Shown one piece after another: positions 2,731-20,806 of a DNA stretch of 35,020 bases. The notes below the pieces were generated by a model. The model did not search any database, had not been told where the DNA came from, and was given only the letters and a program-made list of their open reading frames with translations. The DNA comes from a virus. The position numbers and the translations under genes are program-made. Position 1 is the first letter of the stretch, and every line of letters begins with the position of its first letter. Location: IMG/VR virus record IMGVR_UViG_3300013307_000034, positions 1 to 35,020 of that record, one strand, 5' to 3'.

Positions 2731-3393
2731 TTACCCGTTTACTCCTATTGTGTCTAAATAAGGTAAATCCTCTTGTGGTGTTTTTCTACCTATACCAAGT
2801 CCTCTTAATAGCGGATTCCCACTAATATAGCTTTGAGAATCTCCATTACCGAAAGCTCCACCAGCTAAACCCATCATACCTAAGTTAGTTAAGCCCTGTA
2901 GCCCTCCGAACATATTTTGCTTGGCTGCTCCTGCTTGTTGTGCGATACTTGCGGCTTCCATTTGGTATCGTTTCCGATTGTTCCAGTCCCATACTCTGTT
3001 TTGTTCGTTAGCAAGCACTCCTCTTTGTCCTATAGCAAAACGTTGGTTGGCGTTTCTTGCTTGTGCATCCTGAGCATCTAAATTCATCGTAGCATCATTT
3101 GTGCCTCTTAGTAATGATGCAAGGTTTGTTCTTTGTGGATTCCTGCCAAACATGGTTAATGCACCTGCCTGATTACGCATGATGTTATTTAGGGAGTTGT
3201 TGTACTGCTGTTGTGGCAACCCGACTCTTCCCATATTCTCTGCTATAGCTGCGTTCTGTTGTAGTAATGGATTAACCTGTTCAATAGGGTACTTAAGGTT
3301 TCTTGCTCTGCGGTTTGCTTTACCCAAGCCAGACAATCCTGAAATTCCTTGAATTATGCTCGGTGCGGCGGCTAACAATAACGGAATTGGCAT
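2731..3393 (-). CDS. Small virion protein, likely internal/ejection protein
   Basis: The protein has 220 residues and begins with a hydrophobic Ala/Leu/Ile stretch (MPIPLLLAAAPSIIQGISGL). An Asn/Gln/Ala/Arg-rich helical body follows, then a Gly/Met-rich segment (GGLQGLTNLGMMGLAGGAF, about residues 163-181). This hydrophobic-start, Asn/Gln-rich design is common in internal virion proteins of podoviruses of Bacteroidota and in P22-type ejection proteins that pass through the envelope. The start is preceded on the minus strand by AGGAGAGAAAT, one of the better Shine-Dalgarno-like sites in the window. It lies between the tail stabilization genes and a coiled-coil virion protein. The assignment rests on context and composition. 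Confidence 0.65.
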   Translation of the reverse strand: MPIPLLLAAAPSIIQGISGLSGLGKANRRARNLKYPIEQVNPLLQQNAAIAENMGRVGLPQQQYNNSLNNIMRNQAGALTMFGRNPQRTNLASLLRGTNDATMNLDAQDAQARNANQRFAIGQRGVLANEQNRVWDWNNRKRYQMEAASIAQQAGAAKQNMFGGLQGLTNLGMMGLAGGAFGNGDSQSYISGNPLLRGLGIGRKTPQEDLPYLDTIGVNG

Positions 3394-3427
3394 ATATTTC
3401 TCTCCTATTTTAAATCAAAGTTAAATA

Positions 3428-4345
3428 TTATCGGCTTCCTATTTTTGATTGTGCCGAGTGTACGTTTACAGAGAACAATCTTAGTATTCCTTCTTCTGCT
3501 GTTTTTAGGTTAATAGCAATCCAATTTCCTTTAAGTTCTGCTCCTTCTATTAACCCTCCATTGTTTTTGTCTCTCATAAATGCCGCAGAATACACCCCTT
3601 CTTTGCTGTAGTGCCTTATTTCTGTAATTCCATCGTCTATTATGTCTTTTAAGAAATCTTCGTCTATAAGTTCTGAAATACCTCCTAATGAAGTCTGTAT
3701 TCCATCTTCGGTAGTCACCATGAGTATACTATTCTGTAAAGAGATGGATTGAAAGGTTTTGCTTACCATTGGTTGTTGATTAGCAAGAATCTCTATCTCT
3801 GACTCGAATTGTATCCCGAAGAAGTTATTTCTATCTCCTGAGTCTGGTTTACTCACATAAGGCAATCCATTCTTCCAGTTAAACACATTAGTGAACATAC
3901 TCACACTTGCATCAGGTGTGTAAGTTAATCTCGTTGTCCATTTAGCATTCTGTGGGCTAAATACAACAGAATCCGGCTTGGTATTGCTCGTTACCACTAC
4001 TTGTTCTTTAATGTCCAATATTTCTATCTCGGCATTGGCGTTAGAATCAAAGTTTAATAATGGGTTTGTTCCTGCGGCAACTACTGTTTCAACATAAAAA
4101 CCAGATGTTGTTCTTGATGTTCCTGCTGTTGTGCCTACGTATGGTCTTACATACCCTGATGATACCGTTAGCTGATAGCTGAATACGTAAGTGCTTCCTG
4201 CTGTTAGCGGTTGTGTAACTAAATAGATTCTTCCGGAATTGCACGTTTCATGGGTAGCCTTAGTGCCATTTACTGACCAACCTGTAGACCTGCCCTGTAA
4301 AAGCAAGTCTATTTCTACGGGTGTATTTTCTAAGGTTGTTATCAT
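3428..4345 (-). CDS. Tail stabilization protein, C-terminal piece on a separate gene, with N-terminal beta-sandwich
   Basis: The protein has 305 residues. Residues about 1-115 look like a carbohydrate-binding-type beta-sandwich (Thr/Ser/Gly-rich, alternating hydrophobic pattern, ending in AEIEILDI). Residues about 125-205 carry the pattern VVFSPQNAKWTTRLTYTP, then FNWKNGLPYV, NNFFGIQFESEIEI and KTFQSISLQN. In P22 gp10/crAss-like stabilization proteins this block normally follows directly on the conserved core within a single chain. Here it starts a new gene whose ATG overlaps the stop of the 1324-residue gene (ATGA), so the two are probably translationally coupled. The natural reading is that the tail protein is split in two with receptor-binding-like domains at the break. 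Confidence is high for a tail gene and moderate for the split. Confidence 0.7.
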   Translation of the reverse strand: MITTLENTPVEIDLLLQGRSTGWSVNGTKATHETCNSGRIYLVTQPLTAGSTYVFSYQLTVSSGYVRPYVGTTAGTSRTTSGFYVETVVAAGTNPLLNFDSNANAEIEILDIKEQVVVTSNTKPDSVVFSPQNAKWTTRLTYTPDASVSMFTNVFNWKNGLPYVSKPDSGDRNNFFGIQFESEIEILANQQPMVSKTFQSISLQNSILMVTTEDGIQTSLGGISELIDEDFLKDIIDDGITEIRHYSKEGVYSAAFMRDKNNGGLIEGAELKGNWIAINLKTAEEGILRLFSVNVHSAQSKIGSR

Positions 4346-7300
4346 GTGATTGTTACCAATTTAGTGATCCTGTCGTATGTGTAGGTTTGTAGTACAGGCA
4401 AGGTGTTGTCGTACACACCGTCTGCGCCATCTCCTATTCCTACTAATATTGCTCCCGATGTAGATGCTGTTCCTCCTGTATGGTACGGTTGATAGTATCC
4501 TGAACTAATATCCATGTTGGCACTTGATCCACCAAAGTAAACCACGTAAGCACCTGATAGTGTTCCTGCTGATACCGCTCTGCCCCTTAACTTAATCGGA
4601 AAACTGTTGATTAATGGATTGTCTGCAAGCAATGGTGTCAAGTTGATGATAAACCTCCAACGTAATGTAACCTGAGGAATATAATCAGAAGCCAATAGCC
4701 AACAGTTATTCGGTGTTGCTGCATCTGCTGCCAATACAAAGTTACTACCTGTGTAAGCCAACTCGGTAGTTCCGATGCTTGGTATGTCTGTCAAATCAAG
4801 CAATAGGTTCGTTGTATTAGGTTCACCATAAATATCAATCTCTATCAGTTCCTTGGCAGATTCTCCACCGGATATAGTAGTGACAGAGAAGGTATCTGAA
4901 TAAGTACCTACAGTTAGAACCGTATTAGTAGTTACTCCTCCTGAACCTGATGACGTTTGTCTAACTTTTACTGTGTCTCCATTATTAACAAATCCTGTTG
5001 TACTTACCCAAGCTCCTCCGTTTATTTGATACTGACCTCCTGTGATTGATATTGAAGTTGGAATGTTAATCCCGTTAATCAATATCGCATTGCTTTCTAT
5101 TAAGGTGCTTTGTGACTGATCTATTAAGTCTCCAAAGGTAAATGAGTCGGGTGTTTTATCTCCTGCCTCTACGGTTATACAAGCGTTCTTTGTTATTGGC
5201 ACTCCTATGTTATTAGTGAAGCTAAAAGCGAATCCTGCATTGCCTGTATATCCTGTTGTGGGAGTAAATACAGCCTTACCTGTTGTAGTATTGATAGACA
5301 CACCTCCGTTGCTTGGAGAGCCACTTAAAGCCAATGAAGATGCTACTACGGTGTATGGTTCTAAATAATCGAAATTAGAAGCGCTAAACACTATAGAAGT
5401 CAGTGTATCGCCCACTCCTTCAATGAATAACCTGTATTCGTTGTTGTAGTCATCAAATGTACCGATCATCTTCCTACCTTCTTTGTAAGCCTTTTGTAAG
5501 GTCTTTAAGAAGTACTTGGACATTTTAAACGATATTGGATTCACGCCATTGGCTCCATCACGTATTGGTAAAGAGTTGTTAGGGTCTATAAAGTAAATAT
5601 CTCCATTCTTAGACACCGAAAAAGACTCCTTTGACTTTCCTATACCCCACTTACCCTGAGCGTATCTAACATAGTTTAACAGCTTAGTTGAGATAGCTAC
5701 ATTCGTTGTAGATGCCTGATCTTCCAAGATTGATATGTTAACCGGAATATGACCCACCTTTAACTCTTGCAAGCAAATTAGGTAATTGTCCCTCATGTAC
5801 ATCTTGGTAATAGCACCGTAGTTAGACGATGTTTCACCTGCTAAATCTCCATATACTCTTTCTTTATAGAATCGTGTTAAGCCGTTTGATTTGCTTCCTA
5901 CAATTAATGGATCAGAATACCGGATGCTTGCCTTGTTTCTTGTTCTTTCTGGTGTATCGAAATAGGTTCGCTGTCTGCCAAATGAGTAATAATTACTTTT
6001 GTAGTAGTCACTAAAATTAAAGTCCTCAACAACATATTGGTAAGATTCGTTAGTGTCTGTAGACCGAGGCATCTCCCTACTCTTGTAGTAAACATCTCCA
6101 TCGGTTATCGTTCCTGACGTTACGGTATATTGACCGTCTTCAATAAGGAACTGTTCCCCTATTTCATAAAATACCGTTGAAGCATATTGAACTTCATTAT
6201 TTACAGTCTCGGTTCTCTTTTTAGGCGTGTATATCTCAAGAAGAACATTTTTACCGTTTAGTGTATCGGTGGAAACAGAAGATGGTTTTCTTACCTTCAA
6301 CAAGAAGTTGGTAACATCAGGATCAGGAGTCGTATCTGTCTTTATCTCAAAATCAACCACCTCTACATCAACAGCAGGATTTTCAAACCATGCAATGTTT
6401 ACATCTCCATCATGATAATAGTTAAACGTTACCCTATCGCCTTCTGAGTACTCATAATTAAGAACAGAGGAACTATTGGTTTCATTGAATTTCTTTAATG
6501 AGTTTATTTTGAATACCAAGTAATCATTGGTTGATAAGTCATTGTCTATAACACCAACGGTATATAGTGTGCTTTGGTGGGTGTTATTAGGTGAAATTAG
6601 CCATTGATATGATACTGCGTCTTCCGGTGGTGTGCTATTTAGAGCCCAATTGATAATCGGTGTATTCCCTTTTGTTTGAGCATAAGATTGTGTCTTAAGA
6701 ACAAAGCTTGTATCCGTAGCTATAGGGAAGTACCGACCGTACTTGTCGTAGTGGGCTAATGCTAATTGATAAGAAGAGTTTAACTTTAGGGCGTGAAGAG
6801 ATGTTGATGTTCCTGTTCCTGAATTGTTTAAATCCAAAACATAGTTCTTCATTGTCTCCCTTTTTCCATCAGGAGTATCACTAACCCTTCGTGCTGAAAA
6901 ACGAAGAATTACTCGGCTGGTATCTACTCCCGTAAAAGGACTGTAGTAGTACCTAACAGAATACGGATACGGCATATTAGCCCCTACAGATTTTGCTACC
7001 TCCCACAAATTGTTATTTTGGGACAATGGAACTTGGTAGGTGTAAGTATTGTAAACATCTCCATCTACGCTTGCCATTACAAAGCTTATCTTGTCACCAG
7101 TTTTAGGCAACCCTCTAAACGTTACATCTATTTTCTCATACGGGTTGTCTCCACCTGTAACATCTGCTATAGTAAATTCTAACTTTAGGTCATCTGTGGT
7201 GTCTGCGGCAGGTTGTCTTATTCCGGGATCGTAAGAGGTTGCTGAGAATGTAGCATCTACCACAGGTCGGTTATACCCTTCTGTCAAATCAGCTAACGCC

Positions 7301-8316
7301 AACGTATTATTGTTTAACACTTCTAACGCTCCCGCTTTCTGAGGAACAAAGTCGTATGGAAGGTCTGTAAACAACACATCCAAGTTGGTAAACAAACCAT
7401 CATTATAGAAAGCGAACGTGTATTCATTTGTAGTGGCGTTATAAGCCTCTCTAACGAACAATCCTAAGTCTATGGCACTTGGTAGCGTTAATACTTTATC
7501 TCGCTCGACAGAGGCTATAACGAACCAATCCAAGTTGTCATACCTTGCTGCTACGTTGATCGTCTTAACCCTGTTTCCTCCGGCATTAACGGTAATCAAC
7601 AGCGTGTTTGATTTTGTTACGTCTGTGCCGATGGTTGGTGTAGATTCCTGTGTCGGTATTAACCTCTTAGAATAGCTTGATAGAGTGCTTTCTTCGTACT
7701 GTTCGTAGGTATAGAAGTAGGCAAACTGAAATAGTTTCTTAGATAGCGTATTGGTAGATCGGGTACTGTCATTTGCAAATACCGCCTTTGGTATTTTTAA
7801 TGGCTGCGCCTTGATTAAACTAAGGTCATCTAATGTTACTACTCCATATTCTCCTGCCTTTAGCTTTTGATAGTCGATATAGCACAACTGATCCAAACCG
7901 TCCGTAAAAACCAAAAACTGATCGTTAATCAGCTTTATGTCACATATCCTTTGGTTAGGGTCTAACTTTAGTATGTCCTCTCCACCGGAATCTGTTATAT
8001 TAGTGAATATGACTGTTTCTTCATCGGTATCGTAATCTATCTCTGCTATTTGATGATAATTCTGAGAGTTGTAATGGAAAGCAAATATTTTACGAGTCGT
8101 TTCAAATGCTGCTGAACCTACGGTCTTGTTTAGTCCGGCAGGGCGAGTAGCATCAATAGGGTGCATAGACTCCAAGTTGGTAATGTAGCCATGCTCTCCC
8201 TCTTGTGTTCCAACATTACGAATATTATAGGCGTTACGATAGTCATTAGCGGCAACCAACTCAGGTGCGCTATCCACATCCATTCCACCTCCGGTAAAGT
8301 TCTTTAATTCGTCCAT
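4342..8316 (-). CDS. Large tail stabilization / tail hub protein (P22 gp10 / crAss-like type) with Ig-like insertions
   Basis: The protein has 1324 residues. Its start (FTGGGMDVDSAPELVAANDY, then RNAYNIRN) matches the N-terminus typical of stabilization proteins of crAss-like and related Bacteroidota podoviruses, where a GG-x-D-x-x-P-x-x-Y segment opens the protein. The long middle is beta-rich. Near residues 945-975 there is the familiar EGRKMIGTFDDYNNEYRLFI followed by SIVFSASNF. An Ig/cadherin-like repeat follows (SINTTTGKAVFTPTTGYTG then FAFSFTNNIG, about 1005-1045), with further beta-sandwich material to the C-terminus. Its role is to plug or extend the connector and form the tail barrel. 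It overlaps the upstream connector gene by one base and the next gene by four. The Ig-like additions suggest a role in adsorption. Confidence 0.8.
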   Translation of the reverse strand: MDELKNFTGGGMDVDSAPELVAANDYRNAYNIRNVGTQEGEHGYITNLESMHPIDATRPAGLNKTVGSAAFETTRKIFAFHYNSQNYHQIAEIDYDTDEETVIFTNITDSGGEDILKLDPNQRICDIKLINDQFLVFTDGLDQLCYIDYQKLKAGEYGVVTLDDLSLIKAQPLKIPKAVFANDSTRSTNTLSKKLFQFAYFYTYEQYEESTLSSYSKRLIPTQESTPTIGTDVTKSNTLLITVNAGGNRVKTINVAARYDNLDWFVIASVERDKVLTLPSAIDLGLFVREAYNATTNEYTFAFYNDGLFTNLDVLFTDLPYDFVPQKAGALEVLNNNTLALADLTEGYNRPVVDATFSATSYDPGIRQPAADTTDDLKLEFTIADVTGGDNPYEKIDVTFRGLPKTGDKISFVMASVDGDVYNTYTYQVPLSQNNNLWEVAKSVGANMPYPYSVRYYYSPFTGVDTSRVILRFSARRVSDTPDGKRETMKNYVLDLNNSGTGTSTSLHALKLNSSYQLALAHYDKYGRYFPIATDTSFVLKTQSYAQTKGNTPIINWALNSTPPEDAVSYQWLISPNNTHQSTLYTVGVIDNDLSTNDYLVFKINSLKKFNETNSSSVLNYEYSEGDRVTFNYYHDGDVNIAWFENPAVDVEVVDFEIKTDTTPDPDVTNFLLKVRKPSSVSTDTLNGKNVLLEIYTPKKRTETVNNEVQYASTVFYEIGEQFLIEDGQYTVTSGTITDGDVYYKSREMPRSTDTNESYQYVVEDFNFSDYYKSNYYSFGRQRTYFDTPERTRNKASIRYSDPLIVGSKSNGLTRFYKERVYGDLAGETSSNYGAITKMYMRDNYLICLQELKVGHIPVNISILEDQASTTNVAISTKLLNYVRYAQGKWGIGKSKESFSVSKNGDIYFIDPNNSLPIRDGANGVNPISFKMSKYFLKTLQKAYKEGRKMIGTFDDYNNEYRLFIEGVGDTLTSIVFSASNFDYLEPYTVVASSLALSGSPSNGGVSINTTTGKAVFTPTTGYTGNAGFAFSFTNNIGVPITKNACITVEAGDKTPDSFTFGDLIDQSQSTLIESNAILINGINIPTSISITGGQYQINGGAWVSTTGFVNNGDTVKVRQTSSGSGGVTTNTVLTVGTYSDTFSVTTISGGESAKELIEIDIYGEPNTTNLLLDLTDIPSIGTTELAYTGSNFVLAADAATPNNCWLLASDYIPQVTLRWRFIINLTPLLADNPLINSFPIKLRGRAVSAGTLSGAYVVYFGGSSANMDISSGYYQPYHTGGTASTSGAILVGIGDGADGVYDNTLPVLQTYTYDRITKLVTIT

Positions 8317-16878: not shown

Positions 16879-18888
16879 CTATGCAGACTGCTTAACAACG
16901 TGTAGTATAGACAGCTTGCTTGGTTCTTTTTTCTTAGTATTTACGCCATCTGTGCCACCAATTAAAGCCATAAAGAAAGCAATGGCATCATCGAACTTAG
17001 TTCTATCTTCTGGATCAAAGTTGATAAGCTGCTTAACTAACTCAACAAAGTAAATCTTGTGATACCTTGTCTTAATATACTCATCGGCTATCTGAACCTG
17101 TTTCTGTAAAGCAAAGGCATCATTCGATGGTGTACCGTATTTTGTCTTTACATTCTTTCTCTGAGGGTCAATGGTACATTTAGGTCGCCACATAACGTAT
17201 TGCTTGAATCCTTCCTCTATAAACTTCTCGTAGAAGTCATCCACGTTAGATTCATAGTTTGCCTTGCACCCGTAGTATTGGCACAATAGCATTATGTTTC
17301 GGTGGAAGTCTGATTTGAATTTAGTTCTCTGAGCATATCTAACAACGCATAATCCGCTATTTTCAGGGTCATTTATATCTCCTTTACGGTATACATACGC
17401 TACACCCATTGATTTCTCTGTTCCGGTAATAATAGTAGCAGCAAATGGATCGACACCTATAGCAAAATTAGAATCGTTGTCCGGTTGCCATAGTCCCGAT
17501 GAGTGAAACTTTCTTTTGTTGCTTTCTTGTGGGTCTTGAAAATCCCATACCATTTCAAAATAACCTTTAGGGTCATCTCTCCATTTAACTAACCCTGCTT
17601 CGGTTTTGTAGAATGTTACCTTACGAACAATATTCTTTGGCGCATTCTCATCTTCTCGCTCATTATTCCCTTGTAGGTAATCTAATTGATCTTCTAATAA
17701 ATCGTTATCGAAGCACCCACCAAAGTTTTTAAGCTGCCATACGTGCTTTATAGTAAGAGGGTCTTTACGTTGCGCTGAGGCTAAGTCATTCCCTTCTAAT
17801 CCCTCCCAACTATCTAAAATATACTGTCTGGCTAATTCTCTTTTAGAATAACCGTATTCATCTACAAACCATTCTCCCGTAACCGGATGTTGAGCATAAT
17901 AACCGAAATCAGCAGGAATAAATAATCTTGTGGCAAGAGCAGGGTTTCTTCCTGTTTTTACATTTATCTTTTTTGAATCTGCCCTTTCCCAGACGAGTTT
18001 AAAGTACTTACCACCCTTTTTCTCCATCTCTTCCACAGTAGTGGTCTTTAATCCCTTCCCTGTTATGGTAGCAGCTTTCATAAGACATTTCATTACTACA
18101 TCATGGCGTTCATTTACGTTAGCATCTACCGTCTTTCCCTCCTCATCTCCAAAGTAAGTATCTAACTCCTCTCCGTCATATCCAAGCTCCGATGAAGCTC
18201 TGAAATCTATCTTTGAATTAAGAGCCTCTCCATATACTTTCTTTTCCTTACCTGCTCTCTTTCTTGGTTCGTAAAATTCCAACACACTTGCAGGTCGTGT
18301 CTCTCCTGTATCGATAGGCTTGAGCCATTCAGGAAGAGTTGACCAAGATGCTACCAACTTGTTAAAAACGCCTTTACCGTCACCGTTGGTTTTTGATTGT
18401 ATACCACCGTATGAAAATTGCTTTAGTACAGTCCTGATATACAAAATGCAAGTACCCCACACTGTTTTACCAAAACGTCTATTTGAAACCAATAACCCAA
18501 AGGCGAGGTTGCTATCTAATTCTATTTGCCTCCACCAATAAAAAGCATCTCTCTGAGCATCAATGAAGACTAATCGCTTACCCCTATCTCTCCAATAATT
18601 CAGAAAAAAATAATTGTATCCAGTCAGCCATTCAAGATTGCCATTATTAAAGAACCAATAACCATTATTTATCCTATCTGCCTCTTGTTGTAAAAACTCA
18701 TCTGTTGGCTCTTCTCCACGTTTTGGCTGTACTGTATAGTTGAACTTTTGCTTTTCTTTAGGCAGATTATAATTCTCTATTTTATTCCATGCAGGAGGCT
18801 CAGGCAACATTGTTGTGAGTTCACCTACAGTCCTTTGCCTTTGGAAAGACTTTATTGCTTCTTCGACTACTACAGATGGCTTACTCAT
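16879..18888 (-). CDS. terL: Terminase large subunit
   Basis: The protein has 669 residues and is the DNA-packaging motor and nuclease. The ATPase domain carries a Walker A motif VSNRRFGKT (about residues 134-142) and a Walker B stretch LDTYFGDEEGKT (about 241-252) with the acidic pair needed for ATP cleavage. The C-terminal RNase H-like nuclease shows FAIGVDPFAATI (about 478-489), with its first catalytic Asp, and KFDDAIAFFMAL near residue 640, with the closing Asp pair. Length is normal for the family. The start overlaps the stop of the upstream 101-residue gene by 8 bases, and the portal gene follows after 57 bases, the classic packaging order. Confidence 0.93.
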   Translation of the reverse strand: MSKPSVVVEEAIKSFQRQRTVGELTTMLPEPPAWNKIENYNLPKEKQKFNYTVQPKRGEEPTDEFLQQEADRINNGYWFFNNGNLEWLTGYNYFFLNYWRDRGKRLVFIDAQRDAFYWWRQIELDSNLAFGLLVSNRRFGKTVWGTCILYIRTVLKQFSYGGIQSKTNGDGKGVFNKLVASWSTLPEWLKPIDTGETRPASVLEFYEPRKRAGKEKKVYGEALNSKIDFRASSELGYDGEELDTYFGDEEGKTVDANVNERHDVVMKCLMKAATITGKGLKTTTVEEMEKKGGKYFKLVWERADSKKINVKTGRNPALATRLFIPADFGYYAQHPVTGEWFVDEYGYSKRELARQYILDSWEGLEGNDLASAQRKDPLTIKHVWQLKNFGGCFDNDLLEDQLDYLQGNNEREDENAPKNIVRKVTFYKTEAGLVKWRDDPKGYFEMVWDFQDPQESNKRKFHSSGLWQPDNDSNFAIGVDPFAATIITGTEKSMGVAYVYRKGDINDPENSGLCVVRYAQRTKFKSDFHRNIMLLCQYYGCKANYESNVDDFYEKFIEEGFKQYVMWRPKCTIDPQRKNVKTKYGTPSNDAFALQKQVQIADEYIKTRYHKIYFVELVKQLINFDPEDRTKFDDAIAFFMALIGGTDGVNTKKKEPSKLSILHVVKQSA

Positions 18889-19186
18889 TGTCCTTTTTTA
18901 ATACAAAGTCTTGAATGTTTCTTTTCTTAGTTACCGTTGTTGTTACAGTTTCTACTTCTTCCTTTTCACCCTTAACTGACGTATCAGGTTCTTTAGCCAT
19001 CAACGCTTTTATCTTAGAGGCTTTGTCCAACACTTTTAGTATATTATCGAGCTTTTTATCATCACCTAATACAGAGCCTTTAGAGCGACTTTCTCTTATT
19101 TCTGATGCCAAGGTCGAACAAGTTAAATCAAGCTCTTGCAGAAGCTCTGAATAGCCTGTATTTTGATTTTTAGCTTTAGTCTTCAT
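18881..19186 (-). CDS. Small protein upstream of TerL (possible terminase small subunit piece)
   Basis: The protein has 101 residues and is largely helical, with SELLQELDLTCSTLASEIRE at residues 13-32, then KKLDNILKVLDKASKIKAL and a Lys/Glu/Thr-rich tail. Its start overlaps the end of the winged-helix gene by 11 bases, and its stop overlaps the TerL start by 8, which ties the three together. Small terminase subunits have a DNA-binding domain and an oligomerising helical part; this protein looks like the oligomerising part only, so it may work with the winged-helix protein. No family motif is seen. Confidence 0.6.
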   Translation of the reverse strand: MKTKAKNQNTGYSELLQELDLTCSTLASEIRESRSKGSVLGDDKKLDNILKVLDKASKIKALMAKEPDTSVKGEKEEVETVTTTVTKKRNIQDFVLKKDNE

Positions 19187-19889
19187 CTACTCTTACTTTA
19201 ATATTAGTCCATCCCTTTACCCGTTTTAGGTTTTCATTAAATCCTTTGATGAGTATTCGGTTTCTTTTCTTGTGTTCTTTCTTTATTTCGGCAAATAACA
19301 TCTGTCCTTTCACACTGAGTACATACGAGTGCTTCCTTCCTGTGAACTTTTCTATCAATCCGTCATGGCGAAGTTTATCAAGCCAGTAGAATACATTTTT
19401 GTAAGTAAACCCAAATGTTACAGCATCCATAGCCATAAACCAATTATGATGCGCTATAATCACAAATAAGGCATAGTATCTTGGTCTCCATTCTCTCTCC
19501 CTTAACATCTCGCTAATCGTTGCAAATGCTGTGATACCATCTATAAAGTTGGTTGACTTTAGCATCCATAGTTTTAGCTTGTCGTTATAGATTTCCCTTG
19601 CCCTATCGTTCATCTGTTTTTGGGTAACAATGAAGTTCTCTTTCTTCCTTTGCCAAATCTTAGAGTTTACTTTTTTTACAACCCTATCCCTTTGTTCTCT
19701 ACTTCTTTGGATTTGCTTTTCTTTGGATTTACGAAGCTTATTGTTTTGCTCCATCAAGTAATCTATACGCTTATCCTTTCGAGCAATGATTTCATCCTTC
19801 TCTGAATCTACAGCTTTGCGTACACGTCTTGTTATCCTTGGCTTAACAGGGAGTATTTCATCTGTTTCTAATAATTTAAGCCTACCCAT
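19176..19889 (-). CDS. Winged-helix DNA-binding protein, candidate terminase small subunit or packaging regulator
   Basis: From the ATG at 19889 the protein has 237 residues. This start is chosen because a clear GGAGGT lies 6 bases upstream, overlapping the stop of the previous gene; an in-frame ATG 15 bases earlier has no such site. Residues about 10-90 are strongly basic and helical (IIARKDKRIDYLMEQNNKLR), coiled-coil-like. The C-terminal half has a MarR-like winged-helix pattern (MDAVTFGFTYKNVFYWLDKL then GLIEKFTGRKHSYVLSVKG). It sits two genes upstream of TerL, so DNA recognition for packaging is plausible. A transcription regulator of the late operon is the alternative. Confidence 0.6.
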   Translation of the reverse strand: MGRLKLLETDEILPVKPRITRRVRKAVDSEKDEIIARKDKRIDYLMEQNNKLRKSKEKQIQRSREQRDRVVKKVNSKIWQRKKENFIVTQKQMNDRAREIYNDKLKLWMLKSTNFIDGITAFATISEMLREREWRPRYYALFVIIAHHNWFMAMDAVTFGFTYKNVFYWLDKLRHDGLIEKFTGRKHSYVLSVKGQMLFAEIKKEHKKRNRILIKGFNENLKRVKGWTNIKVRVDED

Positions 19890-19890
19890 A

Positions 19891-20493
19891 TCAAACCTCC
19901 ACAATCTTGTTATTTACCAGTTTGCAGGTCATCCATTCAGAGGTTATTTTGATGTATTTTTTGCCATCAACTTCTAATTCGTACTGATTGTCATCATAAC
20001 TGATGATTATATCCCCCTCTTTAAAAAACCTGTCTTTAGGCGCATGGGTGATTTTCACTTGAAGTGCTTCTTTCTTTTCAGCCCAAGGAACTAAGTATAT
20101 ACCGCTATCGGTCTTTACTCCTTCTGTATAAACCTGCTCTCCTAAGAATGTATTAGGCATCATGGTGTATGATCCGTCCTGCTCTATCTTTAAGAATACC
20201 TGACTCTTTTTGATGAAGTGGCAAAGCTGTCCTTCGTATTCTAATTCACTTCCGGTATCTATTGCCAAGTAGTGAACGAATATCTTTTCTCCTTTTTTTA
20301 CAGGAAACTTAGGGTTCTCAGAGATTACAGTTGCAATCTGTGGGTTGGTTTGCTTCTTATCCCTGTTCTCATCCCATTTCTGTACGCCATTTACTTCTTC
20401 AAACAGCCATTGATCCGGTCGTATAAAGTCACCGAACTTCTTATTGTGGTTCATATCGAAAGCCACTAATATCCAATCATTAATACATTCCAT
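19891..20493 (-). CDS. Tandem GroES-like (Cpn10) co-chaperonin
   Basis: The protein has 200 residues and can be read as two GroES-fold units in one chain. Unit 2 (about 105-200) shows the mobile-loop signature EGVKTDSGIYL, equivalent to the GroES loop with its IVL tripeptide. It continues with FFKEGDIIISYDDNQYELEV and DGKKYIKITSEWMTCKL, matching the GroES 'VKVGD...DGEEY...D.LA' core. Unit 1 (about 1-100) has DWILVAF at the start and PVKKGEKIFVHYLAIDTGSE then GQLCHFIKKSQVFLKI; its loop region is extended by about 30 residues. T4 gp31 is a single-unit phage counterpart, and chloroplast Cpn20 is a tandem one. It begins the packaging/structural operon, so folding of capsid proteins with host GroEL is likely. 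Homology is judged by eye. Confidence 0.7.
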   Translation of the reverse strand: MECINDWILVAFDMNHNKKFGDFIRPDQWLFEEVNGVQKWDENRDKKQTNPQIATVISENPKFPVKKGEKIFVHYLAIDTGSELEYEGQLCHFIKKSQVFLKIEQDGSYTMMPNTFLGEQVYTEGVKTDSGIYLVPWAEKKEALQVKITHAPKDRFFKEGDIIISYDDNQYELEVDGKKYIKITSEWMTCKLVNNKIVEV

Positions 20494-20566: not shown

Positions 20567-20806
20567 ATGGCACAACTATTAGTATTTGTCAGCGTGGCTC
20601 GTGATGGTGCGGCTTATGCTCAAACTATCGGAGTTCCAGTATCAAGGGTTCTTACCGTAAGACCCGCTACAACTGGTGAGATCGCCTCTTTTTCAACTGC
20701 CTTAACAGGAATTGAAGTTGAATACATTTACGGTAACTCCCGAAGGATTCAGACATTCCTCTCTTCCACGGCAACAAATACCGTATTTACTGCGGCAAAC
20801 GCATAA
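20567..20806 (+). CDS. Small beta-rich protein of unknown function, lone plus-strand gene
   Basis: The protein has 79 residues and is rich in Thr, Ala, Val and Ser with alternating hydrophobic residues (GVPVSRVLTVRPATTG, then GIEVEYIYGNSRRIQTFLSS), so it is probably a compact beta protein. It has no signal peptide and very few Lys residues, unlike its neighbours. It is divergent from the structural operon, has its own -7 box and is followed within 7 bases by a strong terminator, so it is an independent unit, like a moron gene. A small decoration or accessory protein is one possibility; I do not recognise a family. Confidence 0.75.
   Translation: MAQLLVFVSVARDGAAYAQTIGVPVSRVLTVRPATTGEIASFSTALTGIEVEYIYGNSRRIQTFLSSTATNTVFTAANA

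Follow-up and report, generated by a model that had tools for sequence, protein, structure and literature searches.

The window analysed here is a linear virus record of 35,020 bases, a 35-kb fragment in which a minus-strand ORF with its ATG at 20493 and its stop codon at 19891-19893 encodes a 200-aa protein that we identify as a putative tandem co-chaperonin of the GroES type (Table 1). The next two genes leftward encode about 237 and 101 aa; the genes for the large terminase subunit (TerL) and the portal follow, and after them a gene encoding 355 aa and a candidate capsid gene encoding 445 aa. The last has no PHROG match and is named by position, and the PHROG search likewise gave no useful family match for the 101-aa gene. 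The product of the ~237-aa gene has no assigned function, and related loci carry a similar sequence at the same position. The window TerL shares about 25% identity with that of Elemovirus. Because the 79-aa gene to the right is oriented oppositely, the co-chaperonin gene is the first of a leftward packaging/head operon; the ORF map, read leftward from 20493, thus bears out the initial annotation on this point. Five other loci (L014, L015, L016, L034 and L045) have small ORFs weakly similar to the 79-aa one, with weak scores, in the corresponding gap and likewise on the strand opposite to the co-chaperonin gene. A consensus scan revealed no convincing promoter at the co-chaperonin gene, and the window yielded no Rfam matches and no tRNA. 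A one-unit GroES and a GroEL were both looked for in this 35-kb fragment, and none was seen.

Table 1. Features of the co-chaperonin gene and its neighbours in the window
Feature	Coordinates	Strand	Basis or remark
Tandem GroES-type co-chaperonin gene (predicted), 200 aa	19891..20493, stop included	minus	ORF; PHROG; AF2 model against Cpn20 7ekq_R, both units
GroES unit 1, residues 1-105	20179..20493	minus	Alignments with 1p3h_A and gp31 1g31_A; profile against shuffles
Unit 1 mobile-loop region, residues 13-52	20338..20457	minus	40 residues, 24 in GroES; modelled with low confidence
GroES unit 2, residues 106-193	19915..20178	minus	Alignment with 4v4o_P; profile against shuffles
Unit 2 mobile-loop hydrophobic motif SGIYL, residues 130-134	20092..20106	minus	GroEL-contact type, G-hydrophobic-x-hydrophobic
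Downstream neighbour gene, function unassigned	19176..19889	minus	About 237 aa with an ATG start at 19889; 242 aa in the ORF list, with a TTG start at 19904
101-aa gene, possible small terminase subunit	18881..19186	minus	By position only
Large terminase subunit TerL, 669 aa	16879..18888	minus	PHROG 6681, E 1.6e-57
Portal protein, 809 aa	14392..16821	minus	PHROG 6547, E 3.4e-64
79-aa gene	20567-20806	plus	To the right of the co-chaperonin gene, opposite orientation

Two GroES-type units in one chain

Most known tandem co-chaperonins are plastid proteins. In plastids, the reason for fusing two units and the way in which a sevenfold ring accommodates an even domain number are standing questions. 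The initial annotation had read two GroES-fold units in the window protein and had suggested a PF00166 search for each half. This search gave no match for either half, nor for the whole protein, at the curated cut-off. The protein did match two PHROG families labelled co-chaperonin GroES, namely PHROG 13932 (E 5.8e-6; window residues 45-185 on positions 34-192 of a 200-position profile) and PHROG 3188 (E 1.2e-5), and NCBIfam gave a match to unit 2 at 9e-4. Four relatives (L013, L034, L071 and L072) passed the PF00166 (Cpn10) cut-off. In phage L071, with a TerL that shares 37% identity with the window's and lies adjacent to the tandem gene, a single 200-aa chain (2102-2704) was matched twice by Cpn10 (Pfam, E 5.4e-19). 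An ORF that by eye resembles an IS200/IS605-type TnpB (3198-4442, minus) lies at the same locus, two genes upstream of the tandem gene.

When the family profiles of the two units were compared with GroES, unit 1 scored 37.0 (shuffle maximum 17.0) and unit 2 scored 55.4 (shuffle maximum 19.4), and in neither case did any of 300 column shuffles reach the score. The two unit profiles compared with each other scored 18.8 against a null maximum of 19.0, which is not above chance, so that the internal repeat is demonstrated via GroES and not directly. Judged by sequence, the window protein is strongly diverged from GroES, a kinship that single-sequence searches barely detect and that the relatives make clear.

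An AF2 model of the window protein, built from 12 window-family sequences (alignment A5, window included), had a mean pLDDT of 78.8; residues 19-48 of the unit 1 loop were uncertain, with pLDDT under 50 at residues 19-30 and 32-48 of the mobile-loop region. The top Foldseek matches in the PDB were the tandem co-chaperonin chains 7ekq_R and 7ekq_Q, followed by GroES chains. The Cpn20 chain 7ekq_R, the best match among solved structures over both units, gave a Foldseek E of 3.5e-6 and a VIA Z of 10.3 with 162 residues aligned, model residues 1-193 falling on chain residues 11-194. By unit, VIA placed GroES 1p3h_A on residues 1-105 (Z 9.7, rmsd 2.6, 73 aligned) and T4 gp31 1g31_A also on unit 1 (Z 7.6), and GroES 4v4o_P on residues 108-193 of unit 2 (Z 8.3, rmsd 3.6, 84 aligned). 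The model of the relative L013, built from the same alignment set, matched 7ekq_R at Z 10.6 with 177 residues aligned. Together with the profile controls, these models show the ORF product to consist of two GroES folds arranged head to tail in one chain; the two units and the resemblance to Cpn20 noted initially are both upheld. The GroES-like fold is also present in medium-chain dehydrogenases, which were rejected as fold relatives because their Z scores reached only 4-6, below those of GroES, for both the window and L013 models. A phmmer match in the PDB to Japanin (E 0.044) received no support from the fold search.

GroES docks on GroEL through its mobile loops. The loop of unit 2 is standard in the window; G[IL]x[LI] occurs in 12/12 close family members with an invariant glycine (alignments), and the SGIYL motif pointed out in the initial annotation lies within it. 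The loop of unit 1 is longer, as had been claimed, by about 16 residues (40 against 24 in GroES 1wnr) and not by the ~30 first estimated; an excess of ~30 is seen by alignment in the relative L018. Most relatives have NG[IVL]x[LI] in this loop, with inexact versions in L018, L035 and the window (FGDFIRP), where the NG[IV]xL motif has been lost. Six unit 1 residues (W29, N43, P51, Q52, H74 and Y75) are invariant across the close family, which argues that unit 1 has a constraint of its own. Both units have a short roof segment, of 7 residues against 15 in GroES.

These features place the protein among several known systems. With bacterial GroES/Cpn10 (PF00166) it shares the fold and the unit 2 mobile-loop motif, but the bacterial protein has a single unit and the window sequence lies under Pfam detection. 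T4 gp31 is likewise phage-encoded and of GroES fold, but has one unit per chain in a sevenfold ring, as opposed to two units per chain here. The short roof and longer loop of the window protein parallel gp31, in which roof loops are absent and mobile loops are longer (PMC6318259), an arrangement thought to give gp23 room (PMC6318259, PMC3012670). Plastid Cpn20 (Chlamydomonas 7ekq; also Arabidopsis and Plasmodium) has the same head-to-tail build, but it is 15-18% identical to the window protein, belongs to plastids, and differs in that the window unit 1 loop is longer and without the motif. We file the window protein as Cpn20-like, and not as Cpn20, a name that would imply shared descent of the tandem and not a separate fusion.

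Relatives among phages and co-encoded chaperonins

A search of IMG/VR with the window TerL retrieved 21 loci, 6 of which (5 distinct sequences) have a close tandem homologue upstream, and a later profile search brought the close family to 12 distinct members, window included. With the portal as query, IMG/VR gave no relatives. The sole IMG/VR match of the window protein itself, L002, was spurious, as it falls inside an intein-like insert of a portal-like gene (3649-6810, plus), which by eye also appears to contain a homing endonuclease. Matches to Klebsiella phages from a tblastn search of the protein against phage records were attributed to chance. At L014, the TerL frame (4582-7650, plus) spans 1022 aa, about 350 longer than that of the window, as if it held an insert or extension.

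The initial annotation regarded known phage co-chaperonins as single-unit. This does not hold, since Cellulophaga phage phi18:3 (gp096, 200 aa), phi19:3, phi38:1, Calle_1, Elemovirus (gp30) and Maribacter phage Panino carry proteins of the same kind, all members of PHROG 13932. In Elemovirus, Panino, Callevirus and Baltivirus these genes encode 180-200 aa, lie immediately upstream of TerL or with one gene in between, and are already annotated as co-chaperonin GroES, so the window gene has precedents. The phages with this placement belong to several families. They resemble the window gene in length, family and proximity to TerL, but their products are only 13-20% identical to the window protein, and the window and its close relatives, in which the tandem gene sits a few genes upstream of TerL, differ from them in having two further genes in between. 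The protein kind is thus already in databases, labelled GroES in marine Bacteroidetes phages, and the window protein is a diverged member. In the literature searched, most of it open access, we found no description of the tandem build of phage GroES, nor of a pairing of two-unit with one-unit phage GroES. What seems to be undescribed is the two-unit anatomy and the frequent presence of a separate one-unit phage GroES.

Among the tandem carriers, a one-unit GroES was found in 11/19 distinct ones, fragments included (G001, G002, G003, G004/G006, G012, G013, G014, Elemovirus, Panino, Calle_1 and phi18:3). In phi18:3 it is the 84-aa gp080, separate from gp096; in L016 the gene lies 4 bases upstream of the tandem gene, and in L022 it overlaps the tandem gene's 3′ end. 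No one-unit GroES was found in the remaining 8/19 (G007, G008/G009, G010, G015/G018/G019, G016/G017, G020, G023 and the window), some of which are fragments and in any of which a strongly diverged gene could escape detection. As 4 of these 8 groups have records longer than 60 kb, a phage-made partner does not appear to be obligatory. GroEL is encoded in five records (Elemovirus, Panino, Calle_1, phi38:1 and G014), in line with earlier reports of GroEL in phi38:1-type marine phages (PMC5332604) and of GroEL with GroES in Panino (PMC11590407). Gundel, a phage that belongs to the same TerL group, gave no match to the tandem protein, the one-unit GroES or GroEL. A different arrangement occurs in a human faecal phage (MT835539.1, L011), where a 193-aa protein (1293-1874, plus) joins an N-terminal extension of ~75 residues to one GroES unit; a TerL-like stretch follows some kilobases downstream of its gene.

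Proposed role and alternative readings

We consider it likely that the gene encodes a phage co-chaperonin in which two fused GroES units form a lid that suits the GroEL cage to a phage protein. A GroEL lid is the most likely function of the protein, and the make-up of the ring is what we infer. The lid reading draws on the fold and profile tests, the double Cpn10 match in L071, the unit 2 motif, the gene position, the accompanying one-unit GroES and GroEL genes, the gp31-like roof and loop, and the 7ekq precedent; the strong divergence of the window protein, its missing unit 1 motif and the carriers without a one-unit GroES weigh against it. Tandem chains would form a GroES-like ring of about seven domains, alone or with a one-unit GroES that would be phage-made in many relatives and host-made otherwise. 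The ring would dock on GroEL mainly via the unit 2 loops, given that unit 1 of the window is without the motif. The cage closed in this way would suit one of the phage's own products, of which a head protein encoded in this operon is the likeliest, just as gp31 serves gp23 in T4. That the client is a head protein is the weakest step, and one we regard as probably correct from gene position and the gp31 analogy.

The initial annotation also raised a symmetry problem for a fused pair on a sevenfold ring. The problem is real, but answers to it are known (PMC5780408, PMC4242682), among them functional mixed seven-domain rings of Cpn20 and Cpn10 (PMC4242682). The chains of 7ekq (two Cpn20, one Cpn23 and one Cpn11) amount to seven GroES domains if Cpn23, with two matched stretches, is taken as two. 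A co-encoded one-unit GroES, echoing these plastid rings, would ease the problem in the phages. We tentatively suggest that a Bacteroidetes phage lineage builds mixed rings of one-unit and two-unit GroES, some with their own GroEL, in which the seven places would be non-equivalent and the lid asymmetric to fit a particular head protein, making it an independent counterpart of plastid Cpn10/Cpn20.

A variant of the GroEL-lid reading, possible though not what we would expect, is a homo-oligomer that contains no one-unit partner and has six or eight domains, contributed by three or four chains. Homo-oligomeric Cpn20 is functional with GroEL, as are GroES concatamers with 6 or 8 domains (PMC5780408), plastid Cpn20 is active alone in vitro as well as in mixed rings with Cpn10 (PMC5780408, PMC4242682, PMC3542282), and Plasmodium Cpn20 substitutes for GroES in E. 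coli (PMC3542282). The several tandem carriers over 60 kb in which no one-unit GroES was seen agree with this variant, whereas the one-unit gene in more than half of the distinct carriers, adjoining the tandem gene in two, speaks against it.

It is unlikely that the co-chaperonin fold has stopped working with GroEL and been repurposed as an assembly or packaging factor, for instance one that assists the terminase or the procapsid. The tandem gene stays terminase-adjacent even where TerL has diverged to E 7e-35, which would suit such a factor, but gene order in phages is also maintained for reasons that have nothing to do with function of this kind. The strong divergence of the window sequence from GroES, the missing unit 1 motif and the many carriers that own another GroES able to serve GroEL point the same way; they are countered by the retention of the unit 2 motif throughout the close family and by the several carriers that encode GroEL too. 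A chance resemblance to an unrelated GroES, for which the silence of Pfam on the window protein and its halves could be cited, is extremely improbable in view of the fold matches, the shuffle controls and the relative with a double Cpn10 match.

For the GroEL-lid reading, the tandem build and the one-unit partner co-encoded in many relatives merit experiments. The culturable phages phi18:3, Calle_1, Elemovirus and Panino, with one-unit and two-unit GroES and in some cases GroEL, offer a small bacterial test system for the questions of fusion and symmetry, and such phages may reveal how the GroEL cage is tailored to a phage's own proteins.
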